Assembly (NCBI GenBank): GCA_016791425.1
Contig: JAEUMQ010000017.1
Location: forward strand, 62,001 to 126,000
Length of the DNA: 64,000 bases
From: Hyphomonadaceae bacterium
Lineage (GTDB): Bacteria > Pseudomonadota > Alphaproteobacteria > Caulobacterales > Aquidulcibacteraceae
Direction of reading: 5' to 3'
In this document: in pieces, positions 56,472 through 63,027 of the stretch
Position numbering within the stretch: the first letter of the stretch is position 1
Layout of the letters: every line of letters starts with the position of its first letter
Made by a program: the position numbers and the translations under genes
Notes under the pieces: model-generated
Databases searched by the model: none
The model's input: the letters and a program-made list of their open reading frames with translations, nothing else
What the model was told of the DNA's origin: nothing

Positions 56472-56621
56472 GTCGCCGAACATGCAGGCAGGGCGCCCGC
56501 CTTTCAATCGGCCCGCGGCCTTCGTGCGGCCCGCCGCTCGCCTTCTGGGAGAGTCGCCTACCTGCGCGCGCGTCCCTGTTAATAATCGTCCGCATGGGGA
56601 TGATCGGTCGCGGGGGAACCG

Positions 56622-58325
56622 ATGACGAACATTCTGGTCCTGCACCACGCCTTGGACAGCGCATCCGCGGGCGTGCTGGCCCGCGCGCTCGCCGACGCAG
56701 GCTTCCGCTGCCCCATTCTGCGCGAGCCGCACGACCACACCGCGCATCCCGCCGAGCTTGCTGCCGCTCTGAACGAGTGCGCCGTCGCCATCGTGCTTTG
56801 GTCCGAGAGCTCGGCCGCCTGTCCGCGCTTCGCCGCGCTCGCCCGCGCGGCCTGGGCTGCGGGCAAGCAATGCTCCGTCCGCGGTCCTGACGCCGCCCCG
56901 CCGGCGGAATTCGCCCGGCCCGCGCCGCTCGAGATTTCCGACTGGGACGGCGATCTTGAGCATCCTGACTTCAAGCGCCTGGGCGGTCTTCTCCTGGCGC
57001 GCGGCGCCCAGCCCGCGCTCGTGGTGCGCTCGCTCAAGCGAAGCCCCGGCTGGGAGCGCAGCCGCTCGGTGGCGAACGTCGTGGCCGGCGCCATGGTCGG
57101 CTTCGCCGGCGCGCTCTTCGCCAGCCCGCTGGCCGATTCCTCCAATCCCGCCGCGATCGCCCATGCGCCGCTCCCGCGTGTGAGCGCGCCGACGGCCGAT
57201 GTCGCGCTCACCAGCTTCGCGCCCGCCGAGACGGCGTTCATCCCGCCCGCGCTCGCCGACCGGCTCTGGCTCGGCGCCGCCAACGGCGTGACGACGCTGA
57301 CCCTCGCCGCCGCTCCCGGCGCCGCCGCGCCGCGCGCCTTCTTCCTTGATCATCCCGCGCGCTTCGTCATCGACATCCCGCAAACGCAATGGCCGCGTCA
57401 GGGCAGGGGCGAGGGCGTCGGCCTCGCCAGCTTTTATCGCTACGCCAATCAGGCGGACGGCCGCGCGCGCCTCGTGCTCGATCTTGCCGGCCCCGCGCGG
57501 CTTTCCGAGGCGCGCCTCGACGCGGACGGCCGTTACGTGTTCGAGCTTTCCGCCCTTGCCTCGCCGCCCGCGCGCGAAGCGCAAGCGGCGCCGGCGCCCG
57601 GCGCGGACGCGCCCCTCATCGTCATCGACGCCGGCCATGGCGGCCGCGATGTCGGCGTCATCGGCCCCGGCGGCGTTTACGAGAAGGATTTGACGCTCGC
57701 CGCCGCGCTCTCCTTGCGCGGCGCGCTCGCCGCGCGCGGTTACGAGGTCGCGCTCACCCGCGGCGACGACGCCTTCGTCTCGCTCCATGAGCGCGTCGGC
57801 TTCGCGCGCGGCAGGGAAGCGGCGCTGATGATCTCGCTGCACGCCGACGCCGAGCCTTCGGCGCAGGCCCACGGCGCATCCGTCTACACGCTCTCGCCCG
57901 ATTATGCCGTCACGCTCGATGCGCGCGCCGACGATGCGGCCGCCTTCGGCAAGCTCGACGCCATCCTGAAGCACGCGCGCGACGAGACGCCCGTCCGCTC
58001 CGCCGCCTTCGGGCGCCTGGCGCTCGATCGGCTCGGCGCCTCCGGCGCGCCGCTCCTGCAGGAGGCGCCCAAGCACGCCGGCTTCGTCGTGCTGCAGGCG
58101 CCCGACGTGCCGTCCGTTCTGATCGAGATGGGTTTCCTCACCCAGGCCGAGGATGTGGAGCGCCTGGAGAATCCCGTGGCGCAGTCGCGTTTCGTGCATG
58201 CGCTGACCGACGCGGTGGACGCCCACTTCGCCGCCGAGCGCCTCGCCGCCGCGCGCAGGCTCGCCGTCGCCGACGCCTGCGACGCCTCGGCCGTCTGCCT
58301 CGGCGCCGCCCGCTTCACGTTCTGA
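56622..58325 (+). CDS. TIR-like, AMIN and N-acetylmuramoyl-L-alanine amidase fusion
   Basis: The 567-residue protein has four parts. Residues 1-128 look like a TIR domain: NILVLHHALDSAS, ALNECAVAIVLWSESSAACPRF, then the ISDWDGD segment. Residues 150-171 form one transmembrane helix. Residues about 213-311 are an AMIN-like peptidoglycan/envelope-targeting domain. Residues 331-537 are amidase_3 with zinc ligands H339 (DAGHGG), E354, H407 (SLHAD) and catalytic E502 (IEMGF). The helix would place the TIR-like part in the cytoplasm and the amidase in the periplasm. The TIR-like part lacks the usual catalytic glutamate, so NADase activity is doubtful. Confidence 0.8.
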   Translation: MTNILVLHHALDSASAGVLARALADAGFRCPILREPHDHTAHPAELAAALNECAVAIVLWSESSAACPRFAALARAAWAAGKQCSVRGPDAAPPAEFARPAPLEISDWDGDLEHPDFKRLGGLLLARGAQPALVVRSLKRSPGWERSRSVANVVAGAMVGFAGALFASPLADSSNPAAIAHAPLPRVSAPTADVALTSFAPAETAFIPPALADRLWLGAANGVTTLTLAAAPGAAAPRAFFLDHPARFVIDIPQTQWPRQGRGEGVGLASFYRYANQADGRARLVLDLAGPARLSEARLDADGRYVFELSALASPPAREAQAAPAPGADAPLIVIDAGHGGRDVGVIGPGGVYEKDLTLAAALSLRGALAARGYEVALTRGDDAFVSLHERVGFARGREAALMISLHADAEPSAQAHGASVYTLSPDYAVTLDARADDAAAFGKLDAILKHARDETPVRSAAFGRLALDRLGASGAPLLQEAPKHAGFVVLQAPDVPSVLIEMGFLTQAEDVERLENPVAQSRFVHALTDAVDAHFAAERLAAARRLAVADACDASAVCLGAARFTF

Positions 58326-60059: not shown

Positions 60060-60680
60060 ATGATTCTGCGCGCTGTGGCTTTTGTGCTGGCGTTGGCGGT
60101 GGCCGCTCCGGCTTTTGCCGGAGACCTACGCGTTACGGTCACCAGCGGCGGGCGTCCCGTGGCGGACGCCGTGGCTACGGTTCATGTCGCGCGGCCGCCT
60201 GGGCCGCCGCGCTTTGCGTGGCCGATGATGATTGCGCAACGGCACATGCAGTTCGATCCGTTTGTGCTGATCGCGCCCGCCGGCGCATCGGTGGCGTTCC
60301 CGAACTATGACAGCCTGCGACACCAGGTCTATTCGTTCTCGGCGGCGGGGCCGTTCGAACTGCGCTTGTACGGGCGCGATGAATCCCGCTCCGTCTCGTT
60401 CCGCAATGTCGGGGTGATCGCTATCGGCTGCAACATTCACGACCAGATGGCGGCCTTCATCTATGTGACCGACACGCCCTTCGCGATGAAGACCGGGGCA
60501 AATGGGATTGCGGACATCGCTGGCGTGCCGCCCGGACGCGCGACGCTGCGGGTCTGGCATCCCTATTTGCGCGCGCCGGACAGCCAGATCGAGCGCCCGA
60601 TCGTCGTGCCCGCCGGCGCCATGACACAGGCCCTTGAGGTGGGCCTGCGCCCGCCGCCCCACCGGAGGTATTCCTACTAG
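60060..60680 (+). CDS. Periplasmic cupredoxin-like protein ('methylamine utilization protein' type)
   Basis: The 206-residue protein has a Sec signal peptide (residues 1-20, AFA cleavage). The domain matches plastocyanin-like proteins: FPNYDSLRHQVYSFS with H88, then GVIAIGCNIHDQM with C124, H127 and M130, a type-1 copper ligand set. A further carbohydrate-binding-like beta sandwich is suggested by the C-terminal VPPGRATLRVWHPYLRA. Such genes are often annotated as methylamine utilization proteins without any link to methylamine. It is followed 5 bp later by a c-di-GMP signalling gene. Confidence 0.78.
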   Translation: MILRAVAFVLALAVAAPAFAGDLRVTVTSGGRPVADAVATVHVARPPGPPRFAWPMMIAQRHMQFDPFVLIAPAGASVAFPNYDSLRHQVYSFSAAGPFELRLYGRDESRSVSFRNVGVIAIGCNIHDQMAAFIYVTDTPFAMKTGANGIADIAGVPPGRATLRVWHPYLRAPDSQIERPIVVPAGAMTQALEVGLRPPPHRRYSY

Positions 60681-60684
60681 CTCC

Positions 60685-63027
60685 ATGTTCAAGCGCCTGC
60701 GCACCAAGCTAACCGTGCTTTACGCCGGGTTGTTCTGCATCGTGCTGGTGCTGATTTCCGCCGCCGCCTACGCGGTTGCAGCGCGCCAAGCCCAATCGCA
60801 GGTGCGCGATCAGCTGGTCGCCACGGGCGCGGTCTTTGATCGCCTTTGGCAGGTGCGCTTCGCGGGCCTGCAGGAGGGCGCCGAGCTTTCGGTGCGAGAT
60901 TACGGCTTTCGCCAAGCGGTGGCGACGGGCGACGCAGCAACGGTTCGCTCCGCCTTGCAGAACCTGCACCGCAGGTTGGGCGCCGATCTCGTGGTGCTGG
61001 TGCCGCCGGAGGGCGGCGCAATCAATTCCGAGGAGGAGAGCCCGCTCCCGCTGTCGGCTGCGCTGAAGACGGCGCTGGAGAACGACGATGCGCTCACCGG
61101 CGTTCTCGAAGTGGACGGGGTGCTGCACCAGGCAGTCACGGCGCCGGTCCTGGCGCCCAACCTGCTCGGGTGGGTGGTCGTCGGACAGCGCCTGGATCAG
61201 GAGGAAATGCGCAGCCTCGAGCAGCTTTCGCCGATCCCCTTGCACGCCGTCGCGTTGAGCCGGCTGGACGGCGTCTGGAGCGCTCCCGGCGAGCGCCTTT
61301 CCGTGCGCGACCGCGGCGCAGTCTCCACCTTCATCAATCGCGCGATGTCCGACAGATCGGCGAGACCGGAGTCGATCAACGTGCGGGGAGGACGTGCAGT
61401 CGCGCTGGTCAGGCCGCTGCGGACGCTCGACGGATCACGGGCGGTGCTGTTCTTGAGCTATCCCCTCGCACTCGCGCTCGCCAATTACCGTTCGCTGTTC
61501 GAGGCGCTGATCGCGGTCGGCGTTCTTGGCCTCGCGCTTGTGGCGATCGGCACCTGGCTGCTGGCGCGCGGCATTACGCGGCCGATCTCCGAGCTCGAAA
61601 CGGCCGCTCGCGATCTCGAAGCGGGGGAGTACGCGCCCGTGCGCGTGGAGACCAGCGACGAGATCGCGCGACTCGCGCTGAGCTTCAACGCGATGATCGA
61701 CGCGATCAAGCTGCGCGAGCGCAGGATCACGGATCTGGCGCTGACCGATTCCGAGACGCTGTTGCCGAACCGCCTGGCGCTGGAGCGTCGCCTGAAGACT
61801 CAAGATGCGCGCGACCGGCGCGTCTTCGTCGCCGCCATCGGGATCGACCGCTTCGAGCAGGTCCGCAGCGCCATCGGCTACGCCCACGCCAACGCCTTGA
61901 TCGCCCGGATCGGCGAGCGCCTCGTGCACTTGTCGTCCCGCGCGCCGATGGGGCGTTTGGCGACCGACGTCTTGGGCGTGGCGTTCCTCGCCGGCGACGA
62001 AGGCGACGCGCGGCGACGTATTGCGGCATTGCAGGCCAAGCTTGAGCAGCCCCTTTCGCTCGACGGGCAGGTCGTAGATATCGATGTGAGCGTCGGGGTC
62101 GCCGCCGTCGAAGGCGAGGAGGCGCACGTCGATCGAGCGAGCATCGCGCTCGATCAGGCGCGCAAGGCCCGCGTCAAGCTCGCCTTCTTCGATTCCGACT
62201 CGTACGGCGATCCGGCCCGCAACCTCTCGCTCATGGGTGAAATGCGTCGCGCGCTGTCGCGCGGCGAGATCAGGCTCGCGCATCAGCCCAAGCTCGACCT
62301 GCGCGCGCGCCGCATAACCGGCGTGGAGGCCCTGGTGCGCTGGACGCATCCCAGCCGAGGGCCCTTGCCGCCGGACCTCTTCATCTCGATGGCGGAAGAG
62401 ACCGGCAACATTCGCGCTCTCACCGAGTTCGTTCTGCACCAGGCCGTTGAGGATCAGTCAAAACTTGCCGCCGCGGGCTGGCCCTTGGCGATGTCGGTGA
62501 ACATCTCCGGACGCCTTATCGGCGACCGCCACTTCGCCAAGCACGCCATCGAGGCCGTGCGCGGCGCGCGGCATGGGTTCTGTTTCGAGATCACCGAGAC
62601 GGCGGTGATCGACAATCCGAAGCTCGCCCTTGAGAACATCGAGCTCTTCGCCGCGCACAGCGTGCAGATCTCGATCGACGATTACGGGTCGGGGCTTTCC
62701 TCCCTCGCTTATCTCAAGCAATTGCCGGCCCACGAGCTCAAGATCGACAAGCTCTTCATTCAGCATCTCACCGACAGCAAGCGCGACGCGCTGCTCGTCC
62801 GCTCCACCGTGGATCTCGCGCACGGCCTGGGCCTCAAGGTCACCGCCGAGGGCGTCGAGCAGCCGGCCTGCATTGCGCTGCTGGCGGCGATGGGGTGCGA
62901 CATGGCGCAGGGCTATCTTATTTCCCGTCCGGTTCCAGTGCACGAGCTGTTGAGCATTCTGGAAGACACTCACCGCATGGACTTTCTCGGGCACACCGCG
63001 TTGCGCGCGGGCGGCGAGGCGGCATGA
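60685..63027 (+). CDS. Membrane sensor with HAMP, degenerate GGDEF and EAL domains
   Basis: The 780-residue protein has a transmembrane helix (about 9-31), a periplasmic double-Cache-like sensor (35-270), a second helix (273-297), HAMP (about 290-345), a GGDEF-type domain (about 353-510) in which the signature is replaced by GVAFLAGDEG, and an EAL domain (about 520-765) with EALVRW, MSVNISGRL, FEITETA and DDYGSGLSS. The EAL residues look complete, so c-di-GMP hydrolysis is likely and synthesis is not. It starts 5 bp after the cupredoxin-like gene and its stop overlaps the next start (ATGA). Confidence 0.85.
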   Translation: MFKRLRTKLTVLYAGLFCIVLVLISAAAYAVAARQAQSQVRDQLVATGAVFDRLWQVRFAGLQEGAELSVRDYGFRQAVATGDAATVRSALQNLHRRLGADLVVLVPPEGGAINSEEESPLPLSAALKTALENDDALTGVLEVDGVLHQAVTAPVLAPNLLGWVVVGQRLDQEEMRSLEQLSPIPLHAVALSRLDGVWSAPGERLSVRDRGAVSTFINRAMSDRSARPESINVRGGRAVALVRPLRTLDGSRAVLFLSYPLALALANYRSLFEALIAVGVLGLALVAIGTWLLARGITRPISELETAARDLEAGEYAPVRVETSDEIARLALSFNAMIDAIKLRERRITDLALTDSETLLPNRLALERRLKTQDARDRRVFVAAIGIDRFEQVRSAIGYAHANALIARIGERLVHLSSRAPMGRLATDVLGVAFLAGDEGDARRRIAALQAKLEQPLSLDGQVVDIDVSVGVAAVEGEEAHVDRASIALDQARKARVKLAFFDSDSYGDPARNLSLMGEMRRALSRGEIRLAHQPKLDLRARRITGVEALVRWTHPSRGPLPPDLFISMAEETGNIRALTEFVLHQAVEDQSKLAAAGWPLAMSVNISGRLIGDRHFAKHAIEAVRGARHGFCFEITETAVIDNPKLALENIELFAAHSVQISIDDYGSGLSSLAYLKQLPAHELKIDKLFIQHLTDSKRDALLVRSTVDLAHGLGLKVTAEGVEQPACIALLAAMGCDMAQGYLISRPVPVHELLSILEDTHRMDFLGHTALRAGGEAA

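Follow-up and report, generated by a model that had tools for sequence, protein, structure and literature searches.

A TIR-like domain joined through a membrane helix to an AmiC-type amidase: a possible one-chain switch for peptidoglycan hydrolysis

Division amidases must cut at the right place and at the right time, and in the known cases it is a separate LytM protein that ensures this. The regulatory domain of E. coli AmiA illustrates how such control is built. One of its helices blocks the enzyme, with a glutamate that coordinates the zinc, and another, the interaction helix, fits into the LytM groove of EnvC (PMC10268282). Variants of AmiA that have no regulatory domain reduce viability and increase sensitivity to detergent (PMC10268282). 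Caulobacter DipM stimulates AmiC, and in a model a helix of AmiC occupies the LytM groove of DipM (PMC10336132).

Here we describe a gene in which an amidase of this type follows a TIR-like domain and a membrane helix. It lies in a stretch of 64,000 nucleotides from a Hyphomonadaceae bacterium, which we call the window (Table 1). A preliminary description, made from the letters alone, had pointed out the reading frame, and this frame stands: it encodes 567 residues and starts at an ATG with a GGGGGA just 5′ of it. The single internal membrane helix that it had placed at residues 150-171 is also recovered between the TIR and AMIN parts, with slightly narrower limits in our hydropathy scan. The same applies to the AMIN-like region and the complete amidase domain, as both exceed their Pfam cut-offs: the Amidase_3 match has an E-value of 3e-38 and 131.9 bits (cut-off 27), the AMIN match ahead of it has an E-value of 5e-6 and 27 bits (cut-off 20.5), and all zinc ligands and the catalytic glutamate are present. 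The TIR_2 match, to residues 6-79, scores 19-21 bits and is below the 28-bit cut-off.

Table 1. Features of the fusion gene, in positions of the window.
Feature	Positions	Strand	Evidence
TIR-like/TM/AMIN/Amidase_3 fusion gene, 567 aa	56622..58325	+	ATG start; Pfam; fused homologue G003:C8
Shine-Dalgarno-like GGGGGA upstream of ATG	56612..56617	+	sequence
TIR domain, degenerate (residues 1-127), with Leu73 in place of the catalytic Glu and the BB-loop motif gone	56622..57002	+	
Transmembrane helix, residues 153-171, GxxxG (G156-G160)	57078..57134	+	hydropathy scan
AMIN domain, residues 221-300	57282..57521	+	Pfam
Amidase_3 domain, residues 333-533; Zn ligands H339, E354, H407; catalytic E502	57618..58220	+	
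Amidase regulatory segment, shortened remnant, residues 424-456; ILxDLTQ docking motif lost	57891..57989	+	

The fusion has a narrow distribution. Our family search covered 60 genomes, four of them from the genus itself: the genome of the window (G000) and G001, G002 and G003. TIR-amidase fusions were found in two of the 60, which are two of the four in the genus (G000 and G003). The G003 protein, from a second species, is the one further homologue carrying both domains among the 60 genomes; it is encoded in one frame on contig C8 (L035:2510-4534) and has 674 residues. No fusion was found in G001 or G002, the remaining two species. When the TIR part was searched against 299 genomes of the order, no additional amidase fusion was identified, and one of the loci returned (L139) holds no complete reading frame of 400 residues. 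A broader scan of genome contigs returned one distant gammaproteobacterial amidase, a scan of viral sequences gave no match and a scan of plasmids gave none that covers 80% of the fusion protein. Since a second species encodes the same fusion without a break in frame, a wrong start is argued against, and we rejected the alternative that a mis-called start precedes a shorter amidase.

The amidase tree points to where the enzyme came from. The two fused amidases are sisters (support 100/100), nested within the genus's own amiC group (99/97), and the pair adjoins the ordinary amiC of G000 (93/92). That ordinary gene is retained in G000 beside the fused copy, and in G000, G001 and G002 alike it sits between an mrcA-like gene, for a class A penicillin-binding protein, and rne. 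AMIN-amidase homologues without the TIR part, a point raised in the preliminary description, thus do exist in the relatives. Because the fused pair nests in the amiC clade of the genus and the ordinary gene has been kept, we conclude from these sequences that a duplication of amiC took place within the genus and that one copy was fused behind a TIR-TM module.

In G003 we saw one Amidase_3 protein. The assembly of this genome is given as 100% complete, although our searches of it recovered neither RNase E nor a close orthologue of mrcA. With these neighbours of amiC missing too, an assembly gap at the rne-amiC-mrcA stretch is likely, and we do not accept that this species lives on the fused amidase alone.

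To our minds there is about an even chance that the product is a membrane-tethered, duplicated AmiC-type amidase that no longer answers to LytM proteins and is governed instead by a cytoplasmic TIR scaffold. In this mechanism, the second copy of a division amidase of the AmiC type has been joined behind a TIR-TM module that comes from a TIR family with a local expansion. The TIR domain would lie in the cytoplasm, one helix would pass through the inner membrane, and the AMIN and amidase domains would face the peptidoglycan. The enzyme lacks the LytM-docking helix motif, and the segment by which the active site is blocked in AmiA/B/C is only partly there. The degenerate TIR most likely self-associates or binds other TIR proteins, probably with the help of the GxxxG helix, and the assembly state or membrane position would then set where and when the amidase cuts. 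A bolder form of this proposal, which we hold more tentatively and at rather less than an even chance, is that the protein acts as a single-chain switch that works from the inside out on peptidoglycan hydrolysis, in which a cytoplasmic TIR scaffold controls an amidase without the LytM-docking helix, and that it is one case of a wider TIR-TM-X signalling radiation in the family. The preliminary description had likewise suggested that a cytoplasmic signal is carried to wall cutting. The decay of the docking helix in both fusions raises the plausibility of that suggestion, while the control itself is something that we infer.

The topology proposed above would follow from the residues around the helix. 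The hydropathy scan gives a net charge of +3 for the 15 residues preceding it, and such basic residues lead us to expect an N-in/C-out orientation, with the TIR domain predicted to be cytoplasmic and the AMIN and amidase domains outside. The GxxxG pattern in the helix is common to the window protein, the G003 fusion and the closest TIR paralogue, L032 of G000. Signal peptidase could also cut after the helix and free the enzyme.

The TIR-like N-terminus of the preliminary description is borne out, despite the Pfam score, because intermediate sequences from the family give strong profile scores. A profile of TIR_2 paralogues from the bacterial family matches the window protein with 48.8 bits (E 9.5e-14), the divergent group to which the domain belongs aligns with canonical TIRs at an hhalign probability of 99.7%, and the canonical profile in turn matches solved TIR structures (E 1.6e-10). 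Direct searches of the PDB with the window TIR domain gave no match, and those with the profile of the divergent group gave no TIR match. A single-sequence model of the domain, of low confidence (pLDDT 54.5, pTM 0.51), has alternating beta strands and alpha helices, and the PDB entry that it matches best is the plant TIR domain RUN1 (E 9e-4). Taken as a sequence relationship, the N-terminal domain is a true TIR homologue, and a degenerate one. The column of the catalytic glutamate in helix C holds Glu in 74 of the 83 family TIRs in our alignment and Leu in both fused proteins, which agrees with the earlier observation that this residue is absent. The FWDxEIPPG motif of the BB loop is absent from the window TIR as well. 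NADase activity is therefore unlikely on the alignment, and the loss of both features speaks for a non-enzymatic scaffold or sensor, as had been proposed, rather than a domain that degrades NAD.

The same losses favour the main rival to a signalling scaffold, that the TIR-TM part is a membrane anchor or export signal only and passes no TIR signal to what is simply a tethered second amidase. It would also fit this rival that the TIR part is less conserved than the amidase part (47% against 58% identity between the window and G003 fusions) and that the nearest TIR paralogue, L032, is degenerate too. However, the TIR frame has been retained at deep divergence in both fused species, and so have its hydrophobic core and two sequence blocks, SVRGPxAAPPxEF and DWDG. 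Furthermore, codon positions 1 and 2 of the TIR part are more conserved between the two fused genes than position 3 (0.64, 0.62 and 0.42), as purifying selection would give. We regard a purely passive anchor as unlikely, though of the rivals it is the one that survives best.

The change in the amidase part lies in its regulatory segment. The regulatory domain was placed by alignment between the second zinc histidine and the catalytic glutamate. These two residues are separated by 95 residues in the window protein and 88 in G003, the shortest such regions in the comparison, against 100-106 in 29 unfused relatives. An ILxDLTQ-like helix motif, which by sequence would correspond to the interaction helix that docks with LytM proteins, is present in 28 of the 29 unfused relatives and in neither of the two fused proteins. 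The loss of this motif and the shortness of the segment fit a release from LytM control, and would put the fused protein outside the LytM-regulated subset of the amidases; its membership of Amidase_3 is independent of that. Some autoinhibition may remain in the window protein, which retains part of the segment (DAILKHARDET). Both fusion genomes still encode LytM-family proteins (Peptidase_M23), the family to which the activators belong. A single-sequence model of the amidase (pLDDT 38.5) was too poor and was set aside.

An enzyme in this state might instead be a spare copy, deregulated and weakly active or on its way to being lost. The retention of the ordinary amiC in G000, the erosion of the regulatory segment and the absence of the fusion from G001 and G002 are all in line with such decay. 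Against it, the metal ligands and the catalytic glutamate are all retained in both fused species, which argues that the fused amidase probably still cuts, and the identity of the fused amidase parts is close to that among the ordinary AmiC proteins of the genus (57-61%). A decaying copy therefore seems to us improbable, and more so than a passive anchor.

The surroundings of the gene bear on a last alternative. Around it, the annotated genes from 49.6 to 63 kb encode DUF418, HlyIII, MFS, Usg, TraB/GumN, NMT1-like and GGDEF-EAL proteins. A HAMP-GGDEF-EAL protein with an outer sensory domain is encoded at 60634-63027 (+), and the start of its gene overlaps the end of a gene for a small, probably secreted protein (60060-60680). 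We found no conserved genomic site: when contig C8 of G003 was compared with the region of the window, the DNA match was limited to the fusion gene, and a tblastx comparison gave scattered short matches only and was set aside. The TraB orthologue of G003 lies on a different contig from the fusion, and the NMT1-like neighbour had no match in G001, G002, G003 or G010. TIR domains are common in anti-phage systems, and the partial loss of the blocking segment would suit an amidase that is triggered to cut the wall once its TIR domain senses infection, but this role in phage defence or programmed lysis, raised in the preliminary description, is unsupported and in our judgement very improbable: PADLOC matched no defence model to the fusion protein or the tested neighbours, the catalytic TIR glutamate is absent, the neighbours are of housekeeping type and the amidase derives from the amiC of the same genus.

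The proposed TIR-scaffolded amidase has relatives in the genus and the family. TIR_2 matches number 20, 15, 13 and 21 in the four genomes of the genus (G000 to G003), and in 72 of the 90 distinct TIR reading frames in the family collection the TIR domain is followed by one or more hydrophobic helices. Examples of this TIR-TM-X layout, with variable C-terminal parts, are L034, L036, L038-L040, L126, L130, L132 and L137. Beyond the amidase, MORN and Sel1 repeats are among the C-terminal parts of the family's TIR proteins, and others match trypsin-like or peptidoglycan-binding domains weakly. TIRs without the catalytic glutamate and the BB loop form a small divergent subgroup that includes L037 and L032, the nearest TIR relative of the fusion, which also has a membrane helix. 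This TIR-TM-X radiation, of which we found no published description, has the amidase fusion among its products.

Two further loci are of interest here. A TIR_2 protein of G000 (L126:5202-7190, minus strand) has a helix near residue 362 and a weak, sub-threshold PG_binding_1 match, and may be another TIR protein directed at peptidoglycan. In G170, from another family of the order, a single reading frame (L138:1498-3303, plus strand) joins a TIR-like domain to an FGE-sulfatase (SUMF1-like) domain. A hydrophobic stretch separates the two, and the arrangement appears to match that of the amidase fusion.

The component domains of the fusion are already known. Their order, and the coupling of a TIR domain to an amidase that has lost its docking motif, were not found described in the open-licence literature. 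The fusion may also help to explain why each genome of the genus has 13-21 TIR_2 matches, many with a helix and an outer part.

Compared with the TIR defence systems Thoeris, SAVED-TIR and TIR-Ago, neither the fusion protein nor its tested neighbours match a defence model. The TIR_2 (PF13676) TIR-TM-X proteins of the family are closer, with an N-terminal TIR domain, a linker, a helix and a variable outer part, as in the fusion; in the fusion, however, the outer part is a peptidoglycan amidase and the TIR has neither the catalytic glutamate nor the BB loop. The division amidases AmiC and AmiB (e.g. Caulobacter AmiC and E. coli AmiC, 4BIN) share with it an AMIN domain followed by Amidase_3, with complete metal and catalytic residues. 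They carry a signal peptide in front where the fusion has a TIR domain and a membrane helix, and the fusion differs further in its shorter regulatory segment and in the absence of the ILxDLTQ docking motif. A further parallel is the FtsEX-EnvC-AmiA/B relay, which likewise conveys a signal from the cytoplasm to an amidase in the periplasm (PMC12505981, PMC10268282). That relay is built from separate proteins with a LytM activator, whereas the fusion holds TIR domain, helix and enzyme in one chain. The order of its domains, together with the missing docking motif, suggests a rewiring of amidase control through the TIR domain.
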